Of a stretch of DNA of 64,000 nt, positions 39,257-50,687 are shown piece by piece. Both the position numbers and the translations under genes were made by a program. The notes under the pieces were generated by a model. That model saw nothing but the letters and a program-made list of their open reading frames with translations. It was not told the DNA's origin and made no database searches. How positions within the stretch are numbered: position 1 is the stretch's first letter; every line of letters starts with the position of its first letter. Origin of the DNA: Phycisphaerae bacterium (GTDB lineage: Bacteria > Planctomycetota > Phycisphaerae > UBA1845); assembly GCA_028289375.1 (NCBI GenBank), contig JANQQK010000093.1, positions 62,001-126,000 on the forward strand, read 5' to 3'.

Positions 39257-41059
39257 TCAGGCGGTTGCGGGAATGAGACAAACGTCCTGCACGGAGCGGC
39301 CGGTGATGCGGGCGATGGGTAGTACGGCGGCGGGCGATGCGGGTTGCGATGGTCGCCAGACGAAGACGCGGTCGCGGGCTTCGTTGGTGCCGACGATCAG
39401 ATCGGCCGCCACCTCGACGCGGCGGATGGTCTGCCCACCTGCTTCGAATCGGCTGATGAATTCGTCACCCATGATGCGGGCGAAGATGGCCGGCGATGTA
39501 TCGGTGTAGAACAGGCGTTCGATGCCGGCGAACTCGATCATGTGGATCGATTCGCAGGAGCGCTGGCGGCCGTTGTGGAGGATGGATGGCTGGGATGGAT
39601 CATCGAGTGACCATCGGATGATTTCGCCGTCAGCATTGCCTGCGTATAGTTCTCGGTCGGTCACGCAAAGGGCCGTGATCATTGATCTGGACCCGACGAA
39701 TGGTTGCGGTTTCTCCGGCTCGCCGCCGATGGTGAGTCTCAAGATGGCATGATCGGCGGAGAAGAAGATGTTGTTGTGCTCAAAGTGCGCGCAGCGGACG
39801 ACGCGGGCTTCGTTTGTGATGCCTTCAAGAAGTTTGCGCGCCGGTGCATCGCTTCCGCGTGACCATGCGAGCAACCCGAGTTCGGAGTGGGTCGCATAGA
39901 TGCTGTCGCCGGCGAGGGTGACGGCGTTCATTCCGCCACGGACGCCGCCGTCATGCTCGACGCCGTAAGCGCGAAAGCCGGCCTGCAGGTCCGACGCTGA
40001 CTCGTAGATGCCCACAGACGCACCAATGCACAGGCGATGTTGGCCTGTGGCGTCGATGGTGGCCTGTATGGAACGGACCGGACCCACCTCGCCAGGGACG
40101 GTTACGCGTTGGAGGGGTTCGTTCAAAGAATGGGGATCGAATGCGAGAATCTCGTCGCCGGCGCCGACCATGATGCGGTCGGTGACGAGCGTGTCGTCGC
40201 AGGTGGCGAAGAGCGCCTCGTACAATTGCGCGCGTTCCTGCGCATCGAACGACCGGATCAGCGACATCATCGACTCGTTCGGCGATGCGTCGGCGGCTCG
40301 TGTCAGTTGAGCGAGCCTCTTCTGCAAGTCGGCGGCTTGTGCCGTTTCGGCTGCCTGGCGGGCTTGCTCGATGTGTTTCTTCGCGGAAAGTTCTGCGCGT
40401 CGCTGCCGGCGATGTTCCCGGGTGCGTTGGGTCTGGCGGTATGAGGGGGCGTCGAGGTGGATGGTGATCGACGGGTCGACCTGAATCCCCGCCTTGAATG
40501 CGACGGGTTTGATGGCTTCGTAAACCTCCTCGGCGATGGTGGACGCGTTCTCGATGTCGATCAAGGCGCCGACACCGCGACCGTCGGCTGCCGATGACAG
40601 ACCGGCCAAGATGTGTGGTCGGAAATAGTCTGCCACCGCTGATCGGTCAGCCGTCGAGGAACTGCCCATCACGCGATTGCGAAACCCGACAAGCTCAGCC
40701 GCATCCGCGATCAACGTGGCACTGAGCTTGACCTCGGCCCGACAGGCGTGGTGATCGATGGAGTGGACGGTGAGGTCGGCATAGGTCAGCGGCACTGCCC
40801 CGACGCGTGCCCACACGACCTCGGCAACGTCGTCGTCGGTCAATTCCGCGCCGGCATTGCAGATGACGCGTTCGCCGGACGTGCGGATGACCAACGCACA
40901 TTGGCCTGCGGGGACGCGGTGCGCCCGGTTCCAGAAGGAGAACAGATCCACCGGGTCGAGCGCAGCCGCGAGTGTCTGCTCGTTTTCGAGAAAGGCCTTG
41001 AGTTGGGTCAGCCTGGTCGACATCGTTTCGGCATCCGGCGTTGGGCCATCACGAACCAT
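39257..41059 (-). CDS. SPFH-like domain, coiled-coil and beta-propeller protein
   Basis: 600 aa. Residues 50-205 have the feel of an SPFH/band-7 domain (VKLSATLIADAAELVGF, then FKAGIQVDPSITIHLDAPSYR). Residues 205-260 are a charged coiled coil (QRRAELSAKKHIEQARQ). From about 295 to the end come seven-blade-like propeller repeats such as LLAWSRGSDAPARKLLEG and IIRWSLDDPSQPSILHNG. No TM segment is present, so membrane contact would be through partners. The ATG overlaps the stop of the MIT-AAA gene by 11 nt; an ATG 12 codons later is an alternative start. The SPFH part is less certain than the propeller. Confidence 0.65.
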   Translation of the reverse strand: MVRDGPTPDAETMSTRLTQLKAFLENEQTLAAALDPVDLFSFWNRAHRVPAGQCALVIRTSGERVICNAGAELTDDDVAEVVWARVGAVPLTYADLTVHSIDHHACRAEVKLSATLIADAAELVGFRNRVMGSSSTADRSAVADYFRPHILAGLSSAADGRGVGALIDIENASTIAEEVYEAIKPVAFKAGIQVDPSITIHLDAPSYRQTQRTREHRRQRRAELSAKKHIEQARQAAETAQAADLQKRLAQLTRAADASPNESMMSLIRSFDAQERAQLYEALFATCDDTLVTDRIMVGAGDEILAFDPHSLNEPLQRVTVPGEVGPVRSIQATIDATGQHRLCIGASVGIYESASDLQAGFRAYGVEHDGGVRGGMNAVTLAGDSIYATHSELGLLAWSRGSDAPARKLLEGITNEARVVRCAHFEHNNIFFSADHAILRLTIGGEPEKPQPFVGSRSMITALCVTDRELYAGNADGEIIRWSLDDPSQPSILHNGRQRSCESIHMIEFAGIERLFYTDTSPAIFARIMGDEFISRFEAGGQTIRRVEVAADLIVGTNEARDRVFVWRPSQPASPAAVLPIARITGRSVQDVCLIPATA

Positions 41060-42170
41060 CCCTGGAGAAGGATTCGTATTTGGTCAGCGAAGATTTGTCC
41101 ACGGAGGGCGGTGTGATGGCGATAATCTGCTCGATGTCGGACATGTTGATCGGGCGAGGCTCGCGGCCGGCGATGGCGTCGGTGAAAGGAATGGTTGCGG
41201 ATCGCTGGATGATGTTGCGGATGTCGGCACCACTGTAACCCTCGAGACGGTCACAAAGATCGCCGAAGTCGACATCCTCGTCGATCGGACGGTCGCCGAT
41301 TTGGATTTCCAGCAGGCGGAACCGGGCTGTCGCGTCCGGCAAGCCGACGTAAATCTTTGTATCCAATCGTCCCGGGCGGAGCATGGCTTCGTCGAGCATC
41401 CATGGTTTGTTGGTGGCACCGATAAAAAGCAGAGCTCGATCGGAATTGCGATCGAAGCCTTCCAGTTCCTGCAGGATCTGCGGAACGACGCGTTGCATGA
41501 CCGTCGATGATCCGCTGCGACGCTTGGGCACGAGCGCTTCGCACTCGTCGATGAAGATGACCGACATCTGCTCCTGCTTGGCCGCTTCGAAGAGCTTGCG
41601 GATGTTCTGCTCGGCTTCGCCGACCCACTTGCTCATGATCTGAGCGGGGCTGATGACGAAGTAGGTCGCGTCGAGTTCGTAGGCGATCGCCTTGGCCATC
41701 ATGGTCTTGCCGGTCCCGGGCGGGCCGTAGAGCAGGACGCCGCCGCCGAGTCCGATGCCGTATCGCTTGGCCAATTCGGGGTGCGAGAGCGGGTAGATCA
41801 TCTTGAGGCGGATGTCTTGTTTGACGTCTTCAAGTCCGGCGATGTCATCGAAGCCGATGGACGGTTTTTCGCGGACGATCCAGTCGGCGGCGTCGGTGTT
41901 GTTTTCGTCTTCCTTGACGGTCTGACGACGTGGGCCGCCACGGTTGGGCGAGGCGTGCTGACGGTCACAGTCCTTGGCGAGTTCGATCAGTTCGGCGGCG
42001 ATTTCCTCGTGTTGGCGGCGGGCGTCTGGCGATTTGGTTTCCTCGGCAAGCGCCACGAGACACTCGGCCGCGTCGACGAGATACGCCTTGGCTGTCAAGT
42101 ACTCGCCCTTCTGATAGGCGGCGATGCCTTTGGACTTGAGGCGGTCGAATGTTGCGAATGAGGTGGCCAT
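41049..42170 (-). CDS. Vps4/katanin-type AAA ATPase with N-terminal MIT-like domain
   Basis: 373 aa. Residues 1-70 form three amphipathic helices with the MIT pattern (KGIAAYQKGEYLTAKAYLVDAAE; then PDARRQHEEIAAELIELAKDCD). After a ~30-residue linker comes one AAA domain: IGFDDIAGLEDVKQ, Walker A GPPGTGKT (149-156), pore loop 1 K181-W-V-G as in Vps4 (KWLG), Walker B VIFIDE (204-209), sensor 1 GATN (251-254), Arg fingers R265/R268 and GYSGAD (311-316). The C-terminus SSLTKYESFSRDGS resembles the C-terminal helix of Vps4/katanin/spastin. This is the meiotic-clade architecture, rare in bacteria. It lies between the ESCRT-III-like genes and the SPFH-like gene. Confidence 0.85.
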   Translation of the reverse strand: MATSFATFDRLKSKGIAAYQKGEYLTAKAYLVDAAECLVALAEETKSPDARRQHEEIAAELIELAKDCDRQHASPNRGGPRRQTVKEDENNTDAADWIVREKPSIGFDDIAGLEDVKQDIRLKMIYPLSHPELAKRYGIGLGGGVLLYGPPGTGKTMMAKAIAYELDATYFVISPAQIMSKWVGEAEQNIRKLFEAAKQEQMSVIFIDECEALVPKRRSGSSTVMQRVVPQILQELEGFDRNSDRALLFIGATNKPWMLDEAMLRPGRLDTKIYVGLPDATARFRLLEIQIGDRPIDEDVDFGDLCDRLEGYSGADIRNIIQRSATIPFTDAIAGREPRPINMSDIEQIIAITPPSVDKSSLTKYESFSRDGS

Positions 42171-42246: not shown

Positions 42247-42666
42247 TCAGGGCAACTTTGACGCTACGATGAGAATCCACGCGAAGAGGGCGACGCACAG
42301 CCCCGCGATTGCAAGCGCATACCATTTCTTCGTCACATAGTGCAGGAATCTTGCAAGTACAAACCCTGCAACAACAAGCGGCCCGTAGAACATAAAGGAG
42401 AACACCTGTGACAGAGTGACGCCTGGCGGTCGCTCCGACAACAACTGCCCACTACCGAGACCTGGCATTCCGATTCCGCGCGCCGTTTCCGGATCAAGAC
42501 GAGATACTTGAATCGTCGTGTCCACAGCATGATACGCAAGCAACCCGACAATGAAGGTCAGCAAGACGGCAGTTGGTATTATGGCCCATAACTTCCAGAA
42601 GTCGTCGTCTGGCGGCTCATCCTGGACTTCGTGTCGCGGCTCGAATGGATAAACGTGCGGATTCAC
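42247..42666 (-). CDS. Small membrane protein, ESCRT-cluster paralogue 2
   Basis: 139 aa from a GTG at 42666. A Pro/acidic N-terminus, then three hydrophobic segments (about 28-46, 88-106 and 117-136). The end, FLHYVTKKWYALAIAG, parallels LLAHVTGKQFFYNTLAAG of the gene at 42862-43296, with the same spacing to a final TM helix, so the two are paralogues. The GTG overlaps the stop of a degenerate ESCRT-III fragment (GTGA). It may anchor the AAA ATPase or filament proteins to the membrane; that is inference from position. Confidence 0.75.
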   Translation of the reverse strand: MNPHVYPFEPRHEVQDEPPDDDFWKLWAIIPTAVLLTFIVGLLAYHAVDTTIQVSRLDPETARGIGMPGLGSGQLLSERPPGVTLSQVFSFMFYGPLVVAGFVLARFLHYVTKKWYALAIAGLCVALFAWILIVASKLP

Positions 42667-42878
42667 GCGTCCTGTCTTTCATTACTTCTGCTTCTCGCCC
42701 TCTTTTTGAGGGCATTGAGTTCGGCGCGGAGGCCGGCGAGTTCCTTCTGGAGCCCTGCTCCTGCTTCGGCATTGATCATGCGTGTGGTTTTCACGTTGTT
42801 CAACTGTTCACAAATCCAGTGAGGGCTTGAAACGAATGTTGTGTTCTCCGATTGCAAATGCCTATACTCCCATCGCAA
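42663..42878 (-). pseudogene. Degenerate copy of the ESCRT-III-like 3' end (MIM1-like tail)
   Basis: The stretch 42678-42782 matches 43292-43406, the end of the ESCRT-III-like gene, nearly base for base. The copy has a 9-nt in-frame deletion (codons DKL missing) and a 1-nt deletion just after NALKK, which shifts the frame. The shifted reading ends in a TGA that overlaps the GTG of the next gene by 4 nt. An open frame of 71 codons remains, starting inside the previous gene, and it still encodes LQKELAGLRAELNALKK. It may be a leftover of a tandem duplication or a small expressed MIM1 peptide. Confidence 0.7.
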
Positions 42879-43296
42879 TGATAAACAGTTGCAGGACGCA
42901 GAGAGCCGCGCACCCTGCCGCGAGGGTATTATAGAAAAACTGCTTGCCTGTCACGTGCGCCAGCAGTGCAGCCATTCCGACGGCGAGCATTGTTGGAATG
43001 CCACAAAAGAACAGCGAAACGGTCACCCGAAAATTCCTAAACGACTCGGGGGACTGGCGACGTGAGAGAAACGGGATCAATCCCTGTGACGACTGCCGTG
43101 GCATAGTTCTTATTCGCTGAGTGCGAGCAAATTCGTCTATGACCCCGTTAGCCAACCAGAGGAACACGACGATGACAAGAAACGTCCCAGGCAAGACCAG
43201 CACCGGCTTCCAGATGCCGGGTTGCGTCAAGCGCGAGTCCATGTCGCTTGGGCCTTCATCCGAGTGTCTTGTGTCATCAACCACAGCGTCGTTCAT
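42862..43296 (-). CDS. Small membrane protein, ESCRT-cluster paralogue 1
   Basis: 144 aa. The N-terminal 28 residues are acidic and polar. TM segments lie at about 30-50, 92-110 and 118-140. A basic, Gln/Ser-rich loop of ~35 residues lies between the first two. The ATG overlaps the TAA of the ESCRT-III-like gene (TAATG), so the two are translationally coupled. This argues for a shared job, such as recruiting the filament to the membrane. No family recognised. Confidence 0.8.
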   Translation of the reverse strand: MNDAVVDDTRHSDEGPSDMDSRLTQPGIWKPVLVLPGTFLVIVVFLWLANGVIDEFARTQRIRTMPRQSSQGLIPFLSRRQSPESFRNFRVTVSLFFCGIPTMLAVGMAALLAHVTGKQFFYNTLAAGCAALCVLQLFIIAMGV

Positions 43297-43904
43297 TACT
43301 TCTGCTTCTCGCCCTCTTTCTTGAGGGCATTGAGTTCGGCGCGGAGGCCGGCGAGTTTGTCGAGTTCCTTCTGGTGCTCGGCTTCTGCTTCGGCCTCGAT
43401 CATGCGGTCGATCTCCTCGTCGCTGACGACGCTCTCGGCATCGGTGACGTTGACGTTGTCCGACGCCATCGACTCGACCGAATCGAGGAACATGTCCATC
43501 CGCTCCTCCATCGTCTCCGACTGCAGCATCGCCTTTTCCCAGTCGGCCTGCGTTTTCATCAGATCCGTCTCGCCGAACATGCGACCGATTTCGCTGGCCA
43601 TCAGGCCCATGCTCTTGGCGAAGTCGGAAGATGCTTCGGCCTGTCGCTTGATGAGCAGCGCGTTCTTCACGGTGAGCAACTGACGCTCGAGCATCTTCTT
43701 GATGGTGGCAGTCTTCTTGAGCGAGTTGCGGATGAATTGGTACTGCTGGGTATCGCCGATGCGTTTGGCGTTCTGCGCGTTCTTGACGAACTCATCGGCG
43801 AACTTGTTCTGCTCGCGGATGGACTTCTCGATCCGCCGAATGCCCTGACGGATCTTCATGTCCCGCTCGATGCGACGCTCGTCAGCCGACTTGAACAAAC
43901 CCAT
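43296..43904 (-). CDS. ESCRT-III-like helical protein with C-terminal MIM1-like motif
   Basis: 202 aa, almost entirely helical. Residues 8-80 form a basic hairpin (RIERDMKIRQGIRRIEKSIRE; then IGDTQQYQFIRNSLKKTATIKKML). Residues 80-140 carry TVKNALLIKRQAEASSDFAKSMGLMASEIGRMF, close in layout to CHMP1/CHMP2 helix 3-4. An acidic linker (VSDEEIDRMIEAEAEAE) follows. The C-terminal helix L184-AGLRAELNALKK matches the MIM1 pattern LxxRLxxL(K/R), with Glu190 in place of Arg. PspC is encoded just upstream, and the MIT-AAA ATPase downstream. It could also be scored as a PspA-type protein, since PspA/Vipp1 belong to the ESCRT-III superfamily. Confidence 0.75.
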   Translation of the reverse strand: MGLFKSADERRIERDMKIRQGIRRIEKSIREQNKFADEFVKNAQNAKRIGDTQQYQFIRNSLKKTATIKKMLERQLLTVKNALLIKRQAEASSDFAKSMGLMASEIGRMFGETDLMKTQADWEKAMLQSETMEERMDMFLDSVESMASDNVNVTDAESVVSDEEIDRMIEAEAEAEHQKELDKLAGLRAELNALKKEGEKQK

Positions 43905-43936: not shown

Positions 43937-44131
43937 TCAATAATACTCTCGCTCCGGGATCACCAACCACAAAACGAAGTAGACCAACACACCGGCGAAA
44001 GCGGTGAACAACGACAACAACACATATCCAACGCGTACGGCGGTCGGATCGACGTCGAAATACTCTGCCAGTCCCCCGCACACACCGGCGATCTGTCGGT
44101 TCATCTCGGATCGTCGCAATGCTTTCGGCAT
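43937..44131 (-). CDS. PspC domain protein
   Basis: 64 aa, one PspC domain: RQIAGVCGGLAEYFDVDPTAVRVGYVLLSL followed by a TM helix ending WLVIPE. PspC is an inner-membrane protein of phage-shock systems, where it binds the PspA partner and responds to membrane stress. Its position between two ESCRT-III/PspA-like genes ties the cluster to membrane-stress systems. The genes on either side are 13 and 33 nt away. Confidence 0.93.
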   Translation of the reverse strand: MPKALRRSEMNRQIAGVCGGLAEYFDVDPTAVRVGYVLLSLFTAFAGVLVYFVLWLVIPEREYY

Positions 44132-44143
44132 CTTCTCCTCCTG

Positions 44144-44755
44144 TTACTCGTCGGCAGCTGCCTGTTGCTGATCGCGTACGCGGCGGTCGGCTTCATCGAA
44201 TGCTTCGGTGGTGTCGGCAATCGCGCCGGTGTCCATGCGTTCCCAGATGCGCATGACCTCCGAGCCGGAACCGGTCCGCTCGGCTGCGGCTTCGTCGACC
44301 TCGGTGCCGAGTTTGAGAATCTCGTCGAGGCGTTCCTGGTAGACCTCGGCACGGATGGCGTCGGATTCAATCATCTTGCCGAGCTTGAGCATGTCGCGCT
44401 CGCTGACGAGACCGAGCTTGCCACCGACCTTGGCGGAGCGATCGTGCGACTCGCGCATCATGCGCAATCGCGATACGGTCAGCAGTTCCTTGGATCGCAG
44501 ATTCAACTGCCGTGCGACCATCAACTGCTCGGTGGTCTTCATCTCGAATTCCTGCGCGAGCGCCTGACGGACCTCGGGCGTTTTTTCCGTCGCACCAGAC
44601 TCGAAGACCTTTCGCTTGTCCTCGGCCAGCTTCTTGATGCGCGTCATCATGCGCGACCGATCCTTCTCGATCAGCAGTTCCTGACGCCGCAGCTCAGAGC
44701 GCGACAGATCGGCCAGGCCTTTCTTGCGACTTGTCAGCCAATCCAGCAATGTCAT
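44144..44755 (-). CDS. ESCRT-III/PspA-like helical protein
   Basis: 203 aa from the ATG at 44755 (AGGTG upstream; a GTG at 44764 is an alternative). Helical throughout with a basic first hairpin: RRQELLIEKDRSRMMTRIKK and QALAQEFEMKTTEQLMVARQ. A second run (RSKELLTVSRLRMMRESHDR) is followed by ERDMLKLGKMIESDAIRAEV, an acidic region and EVMRIWERMDTG. No clear MIM at the C-terminus. The layout resembles ESCRT-III or PspA, and it lies inside the cluster with two similar proteins, but alone it would be hard to classify. Confidence 0.6.
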   Translation of the reverse strand: MTLLDWLTSRKKGLADLSRSELRRQELLIEKDRSRMMTRIKKLAEDKRKVFESGATEKTPEVRQALAQEFEMKTTEQLMVARQLNLRSKELLTVSRLRMMRESHDRSAKVGGKLGLVSERDMLKLGKMIESDAIRAEVYQERLDEILKLGTEVDEAAAERTGSGSEVMRIWERMDTGAIADTTEAFDEADRRVRDQQQAAADE

Positions 44756-44776
44756 GCGTGCCACCTGCCGGTCATG

Positions 44777-46210
44777 TCAGGACGCCTCCGGATCGGCACG
44801 TCTGGGCTCGGGTTGTTCTTCGGGAATGTCCAGCGGCGGTGACTCCTGAGCAGCGGTTGGTGTCGTACGTCCGGCGGCTGGTGTCTCCGGCTCGCCGGCG
44901 GTCGCCGGATCGGCATCGAATTCCTGCAGGATGGCCATCTCCTCATCGCTTGTGCCGATGTCGGCCAACCCCGTTTCGAGACTGGAGACCATGTCGGCGT
45001 CTGCTTTGAGGGTTTCAAGCATTTCCTCGGCTTTGACGGCGTTCTCGGTCAGTTCGTCGGTATCGGGCAACTGTGCGACGTTGCCCTGCATGATGAGCGT
45101 CAGGTTGTGGATGTCGGTCGAGATGATGTTGATCTGCTGATTGAGCATGCTCGCCGTCGTGTTCTGACGGGCGATGTCCTTGCGCACCTGTGCGAGTTGG
45201 GCGGCCAACCGGCGTTTGACGACGCTCGACGTCGCCTCCTTGCCCTGCTTGAGGATGTCGGCTTCGCGATTTTCCATCTTGCCGATATCGTCGTACAGAC
45301 GATCCCGACGGCTCGATAGCTGCGCACGCCGCTCAGCCAGCACGTTGATTTTTTCCGTTTCATCGCCCTCTTTCGCGAAGAGCTGGCGAATCCGATCCAC
45401 AACACTCATGGGAGATTTCTCCGGTTTGGCGGCCACACCCCGATAGAGTAGCACGTCTCCGTCCTTTTGTGTGACATAAAGTTCGGGGTCGTCTGCGGCC
45501 AGTTGGGCGATGGCAGCGGCGACTTCCTTTTCCGGCACATTCAGCTTCTCCGACATATTCTCGGCGGAGATGCCGCCGGTCAGCAGCGCGGCGCTGTCGG
45601 CCTGGATACGCTCCTTGACGCGTTCGACCTTCTGATCGGCGGCTTCGGGATCGAATATGCCGAGGATGTGTTCGGGTAGAGTCTCGTCCGGCGTGAACAC
45701 ACGCCACCCGCCCTGCTTCTGCGGCTCGACCAGGACCAGTGAGACGTTGGGGATGTCGAGTTTGCAGTTTCGGGCATCCTCGGTGAATCCTGATGGGGCG
45801 CAGATGCCGATGATGTGCGGCGTGTCATCGTCGGTCACGATGTGTCGCACATGTTCCACCAGATCGGTCATGTCCATCGGTGGTGGCGTTCCTTCCGGCG
45901 ACGCGACGATATCCTCAAGCGGATTGAGCACGGACGCGATGGCGACGCCGGTCGACTTCTTGCGAAACCACCATGTTCGCTCGAAACCGTGAACGGCGAT
46001 GCGGCGGTTGTGCGGGAGTTCGCCGACCTTCTTGCGATCGTACACGCGGTGATTGGCCATGATCGCGCGCAGCCTATCGCTGTCATCGTGGCGCGTGGTC
46101 TTCCAGATCGATCCGTTGAGCTGCTTGCCCTTGGCAGACTCCAGCCGCGACTCGACGATGGCGAGATAGGCGTACTCGGCTTTGAGCATGTCACGGGCGT
46201 TGTCGTTCAT
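44777..46210 (-). CDS. Winged-helix plus ESCRT-III-like protein with Pro-rich tail
   Basis: 477 aa from the ATG at 46210, which overlaps the stop of the small zinc-ribbon gene (ATGA). Residues 1-190 are an unassigned alpha/beta domain (PHIIGICAPSGFTEDAR). Residues 200-260 look like a winged helix (GGISAENMSEKLNVPEKEVAAAI, then ELYVTQKDGDVLLYRG). Residues 270-430 are helical: SVVDRIRQLFAKEGDETEKI, TSSVVKRRLAAQLAQVRKDI, ASMLNQQINIISTDIHNLTL and DEEMAILQEFDADP, a close layout match to Snf7/CHMP proteins. The tail contains SPPLDIPEEQPEP, similar to a MIM2 motif. CHMP7 and archaeal CdvB also join winged-helix and ESCRT-III parts. Confidence 0.7.
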   Translation of the reverse strand: MNDNARDMLKAEYAYLAIVESRLESAKGKQLNGSIWKTTRHDDSDRLRAIMANHRVYDRKKVGELPHNRRIAVHGFERTWWFRKKSTGVAIASVLNPLEDIVASPEGTPPPMDMTDLVEHVRHIVTDDDTPHIIGICAPSGFTEDARNCKLDIPNVSLVLVEPQKQGGWRVFTPDETLPEHILGIFDPEAADQKVERVKERIQADSAALLTGGISAENMSEKLNVPEKEVAAAIAQLAADDPELYVTQKDGDVLLYRGVAAKPEKSPMSVVDRIRQLFAKEGDETEKINVLAERRAQLSSRRDRLYDDIGKMENREADILKQGKEATSSVVKRRLAAQLAQVRKDIARQNTTASMLNQQINIISTDIHNLTLIMQGNVAQLPDTDELTENAVKAEEMLETLKADADMVSSLETGLADIGTSDEEMAILQEFDADPATAGEPETPAAGRTTPTAAQESPPLDIPEEQPEPRRADPEAS

Positions 46211-46440
46211 CTTAATGCTTGTCCGCAACGGGCGCAAAAGCGTGCTTGTCTTTCATTGGTTGCTCCACACTCGGCTCGGTGGCACAGTCGCCTGCCGATG
46301 GCTCCTCGGATCGTCGATCGACTGCCGGATGATGGATGATCCAGGATGGCGGCGAGCACCTTCATGCAACCAAACGCAATCAGCGCGAGCGTGCCAACGA
46401 CGAGGATCAGAAACAGCAATGACGCGATCAACGAAACCAA
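46207..46440 (-). CDS. TM plus zinc-ribbon small protein
   Basis: 77 aa from a TTG at 46440, with AGGTGA about 7 nt upstream. One TM helix (residues 8-28) is followed by a zinc ribbon (CGATNERQARFCARCG, CxnC pairs). Its stop overlaps the start of the winged-helix/ESCRT-III-like gene by 4 nt, so it is coupled to it. It starts 25 nt after the kinase gene stop. Perhaps a membrane adaptor; the role is unknown. Confidence 0.75.
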   Translation of the reverse strand: MVSLIASLLFLILVVGTLALIAFGCMKVLAAILDHPSSGSRSTIRGAIGRRLCHRAECGATNERQARFCARCGQALR

Positions 46441-46464: not shown

Positions 46465-47499
46465 TCAACTCGTTTTCACCCGAAGATCATTCCCGCAGAA
46501 AATGCAAAATCGGTCCGACGCCCCGACGAAACCCTGGCACATCGGGCAACGCGGAATATGTTCGGCCAACTGCTCGCCGCAATGGATGCAAAACTGATCG
46601 CTCGGCTTGACCTGCTGCCGGCATTGCGGGCAGCGATTGGATGTCCGGGCAGCGCGTGGCACTGGCGGCGGTGTCGAAATCGGTGCGACGGATCGCAAGG
46701 CCTGCTGCATCTCGCCGGCGTTGGCAAAACGACGATCAAGGCGGACGTAGCAGCGTCGGAATACATCATCCAGCCAGCGCGGGACGTCGGTCCGAAGATC
46801 GCTCGGCATCTCAGCCCCATGCGGTCGCGACCCGGTGAGCATCTCAAACAGGACGATGCCGCACGAGTAAAGATCCGCCCGCCCGTCGACGTCGCGTCCT
46901 TCCTTGTGCTCCGGAGCCATGTACGCCAGCGTTCCGCCGATGCCGGTGTCTGCGTTGTTGTCGAGACTGCCCGATTGCAAGATGGACTTGGCTGTCACTC
47001 CGCCGGCGCGACCAAGTCCGAAATCCGTCACCTTGACGCACTGCTCGGTCACCTCGTCGATCTGGTCGGCACGCTTGGTCAGCAGGATGTTGGCTGGCTT
47101 GATGTCGCGGTGAATGACGCCGGCGTCATGCGCGACGACGAGCGCATTGAGGATCCCGCGCATGATGCCCTTGGCGGTCTCGATCGGCAGTCCTTTCGGA
47201 TGGGCATCGAGCAGATCACGTACGGACGCGCCATCGACATATTCCATCACGAGGTATGGCGGATCGCCGTAGGGATCGAGATCGATCGCCCGCACGATGT
47301 TGGGATGCTGCAGGCCGTGGATCGTCACGCCTTCGCGACGCAGATTCTGAACGAAGTCCGCGTCGGTCGGAATCTTGATTGCCACCACTTCGTCGAAGAT
47401 GTGGTGTTTGGCACGCCACACCTGCCCGAAGCTGCCCTGCCCGACCGGACGGTCGAGCAGGTAGTTGCTGATTCGATCACCTTGCTGGAGCTGCATCAT
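46465..47499 (-). CDS. Ser/Thr protein kinase with C-terminal double zinc ribbon
   Basis: 344 aa. Kinase landmarks: GQGSFGQVWRA (P-loop), VAIKIP (Lys42), HRDIKPANILL (catalytic loop), DFGLGRA and GTLAYMAPEH. Residues from about 285 to the end hold two CxxC...CxxC zinc ribbons (CPQCRQQVKPSDQFCIHCG; CPMCQGFVGASDRFCIFCG). There is no TM segment. It sits immediately upstream of the TM-zinc-ribbon protein and the ESCRT-III-like genes. It may control the cluster by phosphorylation, with the zinc ribbons as docking sites; that is inference from context. Confidence 0.9.
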   Translation of the reverse strand: MMQLQQGDRISNYLLDRPVGQGSFGQVWRAKHHIFDEVVAIKIPTDADFVQNLRREGVTIHGLQHPNIVRAIDLDPYGDPPYLVMEYVDGASVRDLLDAHPKGLPIETAKGIMRGILNALVVAHDAGVIHRDIKPANILLTKRADQIDEVTEQCVKVTDFGLGRAGGVTAKSILQSGSLDNNADTGIGGTLAYMAPEHKEGRDVDGRADLYSCGIVLFEMLTGSRPHGAEMPSDLRTDVPRWLDDVFRRCYVRLDRRFANAGEMQQALRSVAPISTPPPVPRAARTSNRCPQCRQQVKPSDQFCIHCGEQLAEHIPRCPMCQGFVGASDRFCIFCGNDLRVKTS

Positions 47500-47528: not shown

Positions 47529-47933
47529 TCAGATTGCATCGTCCATCTTCTCGGCGATGAACTCACAAACCAGAAAATTATAAACCCCGGCAGAGAGGAA
47601 TCCAACGATCAGCACAACCCACGCGATCGCGTTCGAAACACTCCAGCCACAAAGCCAAAGCGCGACCAGCAAGTCGATGACAAGAAGAAGTGCCAGCAGT
47701 CCCACGCCAGCCGCATTCGAGTCTGCCTTGACCGTCTTCACCGTCAGGAAAAACAACCCCCAGGGCAACGCCAACGCAAAGCCAATCCAGAGCAGAGCGC
47801 CCTTGATCGCTGCCCAGAGTGCCTTCGCGTCATCCGGGTGATTCCAGAACCAAATCAGCGAAGCACCGGCCCCGACCACGAGAATCGCCGTCAGGACCTT
47901 GCCGCCGATGTATTTGGATGCCGCAGCCCACAT
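47529..47933 (-). CDS. Four-TM membrane protein (hypothetical)
   Basis: 134 aa with hydrophobic segments at about 14-30, 44-66, 76-96 and 100-122. No charged pockets or motifs that would suggest a transporter family. It ends 30 nt before the kinase gene start and is likely in the same transcript. I do not recognise it. Confidence 0.7.
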   Translation of the reverse strand: MWAAASKYIGGKVLTAILVVGAGASLIWFWNHPDDAKALWAAIKGALLWIGFALALPWGLFFLTVKTVKADSNAAGVGLLALLLVIDLLVALWLCGWSVSNAIAWVVLIVGFLSAGVYNFLVCEFIAEKMDDAI

Positions 47934-48102: not shown

Positions 48103-49506
48103 TTATTGCGAAATCGTCTGGCCTGACATGATCTGGTTCTTCCCGCCTTCTTTGGCGCGATACATCGCCTCGTCGGCGGCCTGGATCAACGCATCGGTGG
48201 TCCGAGTGGTCTGTCGGGACAGGCAGGCGACGCCGACGCTCAGCGTGATGAGCGGACGACCAAATTGCTGGTTGAGGTCGTGATCGAGCTTTTCCATGAT
48301 CCGGGCAGCGAGCACGCGGGCGTCGCCACAGCTGGATTCGGGCATGAGCACGGTAAATTCGTCACCACCGAAGCGCGCTGCAATGTCCATCGTGCGCAGG
48401 GCTGACTGAATGCTGGTGGCCAGTGCGGAGAGTACCCGGTCGCCGTCCTGGTGTCCGAACGTGTCGTTCACGTTTTTGAAATCGTCGACGTCGATAAGGA
48501 TGACCGCGAGATCCTTGCTGTAGCGATCAGCTTCGGCGAGACGACGCGTGAGTTCCTCGTTGAAGTGGCGGCGGTTGTACAATCCTGTCAGGGGATCGCG
48601 GGCGGCCAGGTCACGCAGTTGTGCCGTTCGTTCGCGGACGCGGTGCTCGAGATGTTCGTTGAGTCGGGTGACCTGCTGCTGCTTCTGCTGAACCTGGTCG
48701 GCCATTTCGTTGAATCGCCTGGCGAGCAGTCCGATTTCATCGCGCCGACTGACCTCGGCGCGGGCGTCGAGATCTCCGTCTGAGAAACGTTCTGCGGTGT
48801 TGGCCATCACGTGCAGCGGTTTCACCACGCGACGCCCGATCAGAAACCCGAACGGGACGACCAGCAGGACAATCGCAATGGCTGATCCGGTCAGAACATC
48901 GGCGTTGGCATCAAAACGCTGAATCGAACCGCTTCGGTCGATGCCGAGTGAGACATACCCCAGAATCTGCCTGGTTTGACGGGATGACGTTGCGGAAGCT
49001 GTGACAGGCAGCGTGACGGATAGAATGCGGCTGTCGAGTTCGACGGCGTGCCATTCGATCGGCGTGCCGACCGGAGCGCGATGTTTCGGGGCGAGGTTGG
49101 TGATGGTATTCGGCGTGATCATACCGGCATGCGCAAGCACTTTTCCTCCCAGCGAGGTGACCTGAGCAAAGGCTGTGCCGATCGTTGCGTCGGCGTCTTC
49201 GAGCAAATTTTGAACGCGCGACGATTGTCCTTCTCCCAAAGGCTCGGCCAACGACAACGCCAGCAATCGACCGGTCAACATCAGTTCACTGCGGTCATTC
49301 GCCAGTGCCGACCGCCACGCCATGTCAACAGCCTGTCCGCAGAGAATTGTGGTCACAGCGACGATCAACGCCATCACCAGAACCGTGACACGAAACTGCA
49401 GGCCAAGCAGCGTCGCGCGCAGGCGCGTCAGCCATGTCTCCGGGTTTGTTGCGGGTGAATTGCGAAGGCCCAAAGTTCTTGTCCGCACAGCCCATGATGG
49501 GCGCAA
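48103..49506 (-). CDS. Diguanylate cyclase with periplasmic sensor and HAMP
   Basis: 467 aa. A TM helix at about residues 40-60 and another at 205-226 enclose a ~145-residue extracytoplasmic sensor domain. A HAMP domain follows (about 224-278; RRVVKPLHVMANTAERF), then a coiled coil and a GGDEF domain with DPLTGLYNRRHF and an intact GGDEF (380-384). The inhibitory I-site RxxD is present as RTMD (371-374). It should make cyclic di-GMP and be subject to product inhibition. No EAL or PilZ genes are in the window. Confidence 0.95.
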   Translation of the reverse strand: MRPSWAVRTRTLGLRNSPATNPETWLTRLRATLLGLQFRVTVLVMALIVAVTTILCGQAVDMAWRSALANDRSELMLTGRLLALSLAEPLGEGQSSRVQNLLEDADATIGTAFAQVTSLGGKVLAHAGMITPNTITNLAPKHRAPVGTPIEWHAVELDSRILSVTLPVTASATSSRQTRQILGYVSLGIDRSGSIQRFDANADVLTGSAIAIVLLVVPFGFLIGRRVVKPLHVMANTAERFSDGDLDARAEVSRRDEIGLLARRFNEMADQVQQKQQQVTRLNEHLEHRVRERTAQLRDLAARDPLTGLYNRRHFNEELTRRLAEADRYSKDLAVILIDVDDFKNVNDTFGHQDGDRVLSALATSIQSALRTMDIAARFGGDEFTVLMPESSCGDARVLAARIMEKLDHDLNQQFGRPLITLSVGVACLSRQTTRTTDALIQAADEAMYRAKEGGKNQIMSGQTISQ

Positions 49507-49646
49507 GGAAGACCCACGCCGGCGTGACAGACCGGCGACACCGAGTGCGTGTGTATCGGCAGGAATTGAATCGCGGCTGGATGGGGGAAACGGGGACGGG
49601 CGTGTTGTCTTGGCAGCGTCCGATAAGGATCAACTTGTCAGTACAG

Positions 49647-50687
49647 CTACGAAGCGGCGTCGGCGGGCGTATCCTGCGCGGTGGACTTGGCGATGACCTC
49701 GACATCCGACGGAATTCCCGCACGTGAACGCAGGGCGGCCATGTGCTCGTCGACCTCCTTGGCCATCCGCGAATTGGGAAACTCCTCGACAATCTGCAGA
49801 CCGGCGGCCAGTGCATCGCGCCAACGGCGTTCCTTGACGGCAAATTGGAATGAGATGCCAAGCTGCAAGAGACGTTCCTTGAACAGATCGCGGGCCGTCG
49901 CCTGCATCGCGGCAGCCTCTTCTCGTGACACGTACTGATCCAGTTCCTTCAGCGTGTCGATGCCCATCTCGACGTTGCTGTCCTGGATGGCTTGGTTCCA
50001 CTGCCGCATCAACGCCTGCTTGCGTTCCTCGCGTTTCTCCTCGAGTACCTGCCACAGTTCGTTGACACGCGATTCATTGGGAATGAGACGATTGAGACGC
50101 TCGATTTCGTTGGTCGCACGGTCCCACGACGCTTCATCAAGCAATTTGTGCACGTGATCGAGGGCGGCGCGAAGTTTGTCACGGAGGGCGTCTGCACACA
50201 TGGACCGCGTTTCTTCGCGGATGTTCTCTGCCTCCTCGCGGTAGCCCAGGCGTGATTCAAGATCGTCGATCAGGTGGAAAGCGGCTTCGAAGTCTTCGCG
50301 ACGAACTTCCTCATAAATCGCGCCACGCAACGCCTCACGCTCGCGAGAGCGGTGCGCCACCGACTTGGCGGCATCTGAGATTGAGGTGTTCTCGGAAATC
50401 TGCCCGATCAACGTGCCATGTCGCTGCACCTGCTCGAACAGATCGAAAACCTGATTGTAAAGTCGGGAAGTATTCGATTCGATCTTCAGTGCCAGCCGCA
50501 CGATAATCGCCGCGACAGTGACCATCACGGAGACGGCAACGCCGGCGAGTACCAGCCAAATGCCCTCGGGTGTGTTGAATCGCAGAACGCCGAGGACAAT
50601 CGCCGCCACACCCAACGCCACGCCCGCAACCGTCACAAGGACGGCGAGCAAACGGAGACGGGACAATCGTGTCGTTGCACTCAGCAT
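49647..50687 (-). CDS. Membrane-anchored helical (TPR-like) protein
   Basis: 346 aa. Two TM helices at about 12-34 and 44-66, then a long helical part with YNQVFDLFEQVQRHG, FHLIDDLESRLGYREEAEN, EIERLNRLIPNESRV and a final unit WRDALAAGLQIVEEFPNSRMAKEV that resembles a TPR. It stands about 140 nt upstream of the diguanylate cyclase. It may be a membrane-bound scaffold; no family assigned. Confidence 0.75.
   Translation of the reverse strand: MLSATTRLSRLRLLAVLVTVAGVALGVAAIVLGVLRFNTPEGIWLVLAGVAVSVMVTVAAIIVRLALKIESNTSRLYNQVFDLFEQVQRHGTLIGQISENTSISDAAKSVAHRSREREALRGAIYEEVRREDFEAAFHLIDDLESRLGYREEAENIREETRSMCADALRDKLRAALDHVHKLLDEASWDRATNEIERLNRLIPNESRVNELWQVLEEKREERKQALMRQWNQAIQDSNVEMGIDTLKELDQYVSREEAAAMQATARDLFKERLLQLGISFQFAVKERRWRDALAAGLQIVEEFPNSRMAKEVDEHMAALRSRAGIPSDVEVIAKSTAQDTPADAAS

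Follow-up and report, generated by a model that had tools for sequence, protein, structure and literature searches.

The 64,000-nt stretch of a Phycisphaerae contig analyzed here (the window) contained twelve tightly packed genes on the minus strand, forming an operon with intergenic gaps of -17 to 76 nt. The first gene, conserved in this position of the cluster, encoded a hydrophobic membrane protein of 134 aa (47529-47933). It was followed by the genes for a Ser/Thr kinase with a C-terminal double zinc ribbon (46465-47499; Pfam Pkinase, 5.4e-41, and DZR) and for a 77-aa protein with a hydrophobic N-terminus and zinc-ribbon-like cysteines (46207-46440), the latter overlapping by 4 nt the gene of main interest here, P0001 (44777-46210, 477 aa). 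Downstream of P0001 were the genes for an ESCRT-III-like protein of 206 aa (44144-44764), a PspC-domain protein of 64 aa (43937-44131; Pfam PspC, 3.1e-25) and an ESCRT-III (Snf7) protein of 202 aa (43296-43904), then three small genes seen only in the window, an AAA ATPase of the Vps4/CdvC type (41049-42170, 373 aa) and a conserved partner of 600 aa (39257-41059). This last protein matched no Pfam family, and its C-terminal half, as read from the sequence, was probably beta-propeller-like. The order kinase, P0001, 206-aa protein, PspC, 202-aa protein, ATPase and propeller-like protein recurred in related loci. The kinase gene was conserved there upstream of P0001, the 600-aa gene kept its position beside the ATPase gene in many loci, and the PspC gene was present in many, though not all.

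Over about 115 bp, the 3' end of a 71-aa ORF at 42663-42878 (minus strand) duplicated that of the 202-aa gene at 43296-43904 almost exactly. Each of the duplicated ends (42663-42878, and beside 43296-43440) was followed by a small membrane-protein gene, and these genes were not seen in related loci. Upstream of the operon, at 48103-50687 on the minus strand, two proteins were encoded, one GGDEF-like and the other a membrane protein with coiled coils, and their genes are conserved next to the cluster in many Phycisphaerae loci.

The first-pass annotation had called a gene at 44777-46210, and a frame of 477 codons, with ATG at 46210 and the stop at 44777, was indeed open on the minus strand and kept across relatives. 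As 51 of the 60 related planctomycete genomes had homologues with 28-81% identity, P0001 was regarded as a real, conserved gene. Among named records, homologues were found almost only in Phycisphaerae/Planctomycetota MAGs. The most conserved member of the cluster was the 202-aa family (65-90% identity), which showed a patchy distribution both in the class (82 of 298 sampled genomes) and across the phylum (56 of 392). P0001, the 202-aa protein and the ATPase were co-present or co-absent over the 60 genomes (Fisher 1.5e-7 and 8.8e-10, uncorrected for phylogeny), and among genomes with a completeness of 90% or more and a contamination of 5% or less, four from one family lacked all three.

The homology of the 202-aa protein to ESCRT-III was demonstrated by sequence match, helix order and charge polarity. 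Pfam Snf7 matched 16 of the 22 phylum-wide members (best 2.7e-6), with the window member alone scoring none. The phylum-wide profile, when compared with all PDB sequences, gave seven matches, all of them to the ESCRT-III proteins Snf7 (0.0015), CHMP3 (0.015) and CHMP2A (0.54); members of the window lineage alone gave no PDB match for either the 202-aa or the 206-aa family. The AF2 model (pLDDT 74, pTM 0.58) consisted of helices at residues 7-49, 52-110, 115-148 and 162-201, which agree with the a1-a5 order and the a1-a2/3 hairpin of ESCRT-III. Foldseek ranked CdvB of S. islandicus first for this model (prob 1.00, E 0.011), and its further matches were enriched in ESCRT-III (CdvB2, CHMP2A/CHMP3 and Loki CHMP4-7). 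A second structural comparison placed BAR domains first, as is usual for long helical hairpins. The mean charge was +10 in the core and -16 in the C-terminal region. The C-terminus carried a conserved amphipathic MIM1-like helix, LxxLRAELxxLK, which in the window protein fitted neither the strict nor the relaxed MIM1 pattern. The strict form, (D/E)xxLxxRLxxL(K/R), was found in one of 30 lineages, a divergent one; the relaxed form matched 6 of the 30 tails, where 0.24 matches were expected. The 206-aa protein had a basic core (+9) and an acidic C-terminal half (-8), and gave no match to Pfam Snf7.

The best NCBIfam match of the ATPase was CdvC, which aligned over residues 16-369 with 2.6e-72 and did not reach the equivalog cut-off of 650 bits. 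The ATPase contained the Pfam domains AAA, AAA_lid_3 and Vps4_C, the last at 21.5 bits, just above the cut-off of 21.3. With its single AAA domain, Vps4-type C-terminal helix and conserved pore loop KWVGE, the protein was assigned to the Vps4/CdvC type. Its identity to yeast Vps4 was 33% in an alignment reaching through the C-terminal helix. Of the yeast sequences used as queries, Vps4 was exact, and Snf7 was exact against the PDB in the core and slightly off over the last 60 or so residues. PDB profile searches ranked two-domain Cdc48 proteins first, because the scores of their two domains add up. The N-terminus matched weakly, Pfam MIT being detected in 2 of 20 members (best 0.011) and TPR_2 in 10 of 20 (0.0024), and the CdvC alignment covered the region; MIT-like N-terminal helices are suggested at most.

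The Vps4-type ATPase was encoded in the same operon as the ESCRT-III protein, with conserved linkage, co-loss, the domain layout described and gene fusion/fission, and there is good support for the view that this operon encodes a bacterial ESCRT-III/Vps4 system. Membrane remodelling is the likely activity of the system, and its polymerization, nucleation, MIT binding, membrane cutting and physiological role are predictions. The openly licensed literature searched placed the ESCRT-III/Vps4 pairing only in archaea and eukaryotes, and no description of the cluster was found in it. That bacterial operons can combine homologues of Snf7 or PspA with AAA+ ATPases was already known, as were transfers of archaeal Vps4 to bacteria in which snf7 was displaced (Ravi et al. 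2024, PMC11237479). Unlike the planctomycete cluster, the loci of that study either feature a TM segment or encode a two-AAA protein together with transporters, and its main text contains neither a multi-paralogue ESCRT-III/Vps4 locus nor a mention of Planctomycetes. The cluster resembles the bacterial PspA/Vipp1 (PSP) system in belonging to the ESCRT-III superfamily and in the PspC partner. It differs in the pairing with a Vps4/CdvC-type ATPase, in the match of the 202-aa family to Snf7, and in residing in a genome without PspA above the cut-off.

The genome also gave no hit for FtsZ/tubulin in a search that was positive in 13 of 14 controls. As both FtsZ and PspA were lacking, division and membrane stress both remain candidate roles. 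The operon could be a replacement for PspA, providing ESCRT-III-based membrane repair under the control of PspC and the kinase and having no part in division, which we consider quite possible, if somewhat short of probable. A stress or repair role of this kind is suggested by the absence of PspA from the genome and by the PspC gene, which lies between two genes for ESCRT-III-like proteins, and the kinase with zinc ribbons encoded upstream is consistent with it. Most relatives were also without PspA, which exceeded the cut-off in 8 of 60. On the other hand, five relatives (G036, G038, G040, G051 and G055) had PspA in addition to the cluster, two (G039 and G045) had neither, and some loci lacked PspC. 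No clean anticorrelation of PspA with the cluster was seen across the relatives, and strict replacement of PspA was not supported.

Binary fission in Phycisphaerae proceeds without FtsZ and by an unknown driver (PMC6952346). This fission, the lack of FtsZ/tubulin in the genome, and the fact that CdvB and CdvC were the closest structural and profile matches would fit a system constricting or cutting the division neck, as Cdv does in Sulfolobales. We nevertheless regard a division role as unlikely. The cluster was missing in the near-complete relatives G039, G045, G049 and G052, and only 82 of the 298 sampled class genomes were positive, in a phylum that as a whole has been described as lacking FtsZ. 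The cluster is therefore not a general FtsZ replacement, and an obligatory role in division is disfavoured, as some FtsZ-less relatives do not have the cluster.

P0001 as a whole matched no Pfam family and gave no meaningful NCBIfam match. The AF2 model, built from 27 sequences, had a mean pLDDT of 78 and a pTM of 0.51, so that single domains were good and their placement relative to each other was uncertain. It comprised an alpha/beta domain (residues 1-187, nt 46210-45650 on the minus strand, pLDDT about 90), a winged helix (residues 190-258), ESCRT-III-like helices a0-a5 (residues 270-434), and a variable disordered tail (residues 436-477) ending in a conserved PEAS-type C-terminus. No family had previously been recognized in the N-terminal 190 or so residues, in agreement with the searches of this domain, which gave neither a Pfam match nor a PDB sequence match above chance. 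It is at most a candidate for a new domain. Its GFTxxA motif led us to consider a restriction-endonuclease-like fold as a candidate.

The helices of P0001 (residues 270-279, 284-325, 329-378, 385-417 and 421-432) followed the ESCRT-III order in the model. A basic core with acidic C-terminal helices is the known polarity of ESCRT-III, and the P0001 family showed a core of +4.8 and an a4-a5 region of -13.1; P0001, the 202-aa protein and the 206-aa protein all had this arrangement. Residues 266-440 were paralogous to the 206-aa protein in hhalign (prob 87-89, P 2-4e-6, with reversed-profile controls at 1.4 or less; score 44-45, with reversed controls at about 20 or less). Neither of these two was connected by hhalign to the 202-aa protein, and a profile link to it was discarded for both. 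The searches with Pfam Snf7 and profiles provided no secure link from P0001 itself to ESCRT-III, as Snf7 matched residues 266-440 in 4 of 25 members (best E 0.1) and CdvB appeared at 0.045, listed among coiled coils. For the helices of the model, Foldseek assigned a prob of 0.97 to CdvB2, Asgard ESCRT-IIIB and Vipp1, whereas VIA-align placed the coiled-coil hairpins CT398/HP0958 (Z 13.2 and 12.3) above CHMP (11.1), with CHMP2A/3 and Snf7 at about 11; long hairpins are frequent, and Z below 13 for helical bundles may reflect a common arrangement only. The VIA-align ranking and the missing profile link to the 202-aa protein would agree with P0001 being merely a scaffold with a coiled-coil hairpin, leaving the 202-aa protein as the sole true ESCRT-III of the operon. 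We find this rather doubtful in view of the five-helix order, the polarity of basic core and acidic tail, the Foldseek matches to ESCRT-III/Vipp1, the paralogy with the 206-aa protein, and the amphipathic helix at the start of the ESCRT-III-like genes in split loci. The winged-helix/ESCRT-III fusion proposed in the first-pass annotation was supported by structure, by paralogy and by the natural split.

The winged helix, for its part, withstood structural comparison. The model contained helices at residues 191-204, 206-211, 216-223 and 227-240 and strands at 244-249 and 252-257, and Foldseek aligned the wing to the Zalpha domain 1qbj with prob 1.00 over 66 columns (rmsd 2.4 Å, TMt 0.73). Its Foldseek matches were mostly DNA-binding domains (Zalpha, GntR and HlyU), but it is very improbable that P0001 is a DNA-binding regulator of the operon, as the window wing is acidic (net -5, recognition helix net -2; family means -0.5 and -0.2), P0001-type wings are fused or adjacent to ESCRT-III parts, and the winged helices of ESCRT-II serve protein contacts.

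In other planctomycete classes, P0001 often corresponded to two adjacent genes with the same cluster partners, cut at residues of about 257/273 into a winged-helix gene and an ESCRT-III-like gene opening with its own amphipathic helix. The split was seen in the loci L089, L094, L095, L097 and L101, and by position also in L098, L102, L108 and L112. Since the two halves are separate neighbouring genes in these classes, P0001 of the window was regarded as a fusion. The gene splitting is the strongest support for the predicted domain boundary and for the view that the wing and the ESCRT-III part are linked in function.

CHMP7 has winged helices N-terminal to its ESCRT-III part (PMC5069351), and the parallel drawn earlier with this protein stood in so far as P0001 also carries a wing before ESCRT-III in one chain; the adaptor/nucleator role of P0001 is proposed by this analogy. 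The parallel did not extend further, as CHMP7 contains a tandem pair of VPS25-related wings, whereas P0001 has a single wing after an alpha/beta domain of about 187 residues, and no sequence match of P0001 to CHMP7 was found. A CdvB-like layout, also suggested earlier, was ruled out on domain order, the winged helix of CdvB lying C-terminal to ESCRT-III (PMC12818579) and that of P0001 N-terminal. By composition and order of its domains, P0001 belonged to neither CHMP7 nor CdvB. At the level of the locus, the cluster is similar to archaeal Cdv (CdvB/CdvB1/CdvB2 and CdvC) in combining several ESCRT-III paralogues with a Vps4-type ATPase. It differs in being bacterial, in having no visible CdvA and no MIM2, in the wing on the opposite side, and in the addition of the kinase, PspC and the propeller-like protein. 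The Asgard ESCRT locus (Snf7, Vps4 and an ESCRT-II winged-helix gene) likewise places a winged-helix gene next to those for ESCRT-III and Vps4, and the split planctomycete loci follow the same logic; in contrast to Asgard archaea, no ubiquitin or ESCRT-I parts were noticed in the examined loci, and the N-terminal domain of the wing protein is different.

A MIM2-like Pro-rich tail had also been assigned to P0001 and was excluded. The MIM2 core pattern phi-P-x-phi-P (PMC8970359) was absent from P0001 of the window and occurred in the P0001 tails of 6 of 53 relatives against 5.3 by shuffling, which was no excess. The Pro-rich SPPLDIPEEQPEP lay within a variable linker in the alignment and was not conserved. 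The extreme C-terminus was conserved as PE[AMLP]x in 37 of 60. In Phycisphaerae homologues, the PE(A/P/M)x end (window 44777-44800) was kept behind the variable linker.

In our view, P0001 is probably one of the subunits of a bacterial membrane-remodelling system of the ESCRT-III/Vps4 type that is encoded in one operon and works as proposed below, with P0001 itself, by analogy, likely acting as its adaptor or nucleator. The alpha/beta domain and winged helix would form the targeting/adaptor part, like ESCRT-II and the N-terminus of CHMP7 in eukaryotes, and the helical part would join, and probably seed, a filament with the 202-aa and 206-aa ESCRT-III-like proteins. The amphipathic helix in the tail of the 202-aa subunit may then recruit the Vps4-like ATPase by contacting the MIT-like domain of this enzyme, and the ATPase would remodel or disassemble the filament, by which the inner membrane would be bent or cut. 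The kinase and PspC would probably couple the system to an envelope signal. A more far-reaching reading, which we offer only tentatively, is that of a complete planctomycete ESCRT with a winged-helix adaptor, three ESCRT-III paralogues and one or two Vps4-type ATPases, performing scission in FtsZ-less cells, including division or internal membranes, with P0001 as a lineage-specific fusion of ESCRT-II-like and ESCRT-III parts. A conserved bacterial locus combining ESCRT-III and Vps4 with a winged-helix protein, in a phylum that lacks FtsZ and is known for unusual membranes, would change the picture of where this pairing occurs. It would bear on the origin of ESCRT, by transfer or deep ancestry, and would provide a concrete gene set for studying cell division or membrane repair in these bacteria.

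The cluster in other planctomycete classes carried two ATPases. The second AAA ATPase gene, which was not in the window locus, was located at L089:8361-9593, L098:6394-7638, L108:8621-9925 and L112:9731-10981, and its product had an MIT-like N-terminus and a pore loop of the SKYFGES or SKWVGDS type. Another protein encoded within the cluster, at L098:5199-6347, apparently had two MIT-like helical repeats. A second P0001 paralogue, about 37% identical, was found in genome G035 (L077:8171-9520), with no other cluster genes within the 10 kb locus. The same cluster, closely resembling the Phycisphaerae ones, was also present in a contig labelled Alphaproteobacteria (L028, JANQQE010000024.1), which is probably a mislabelled planctomycete bin.
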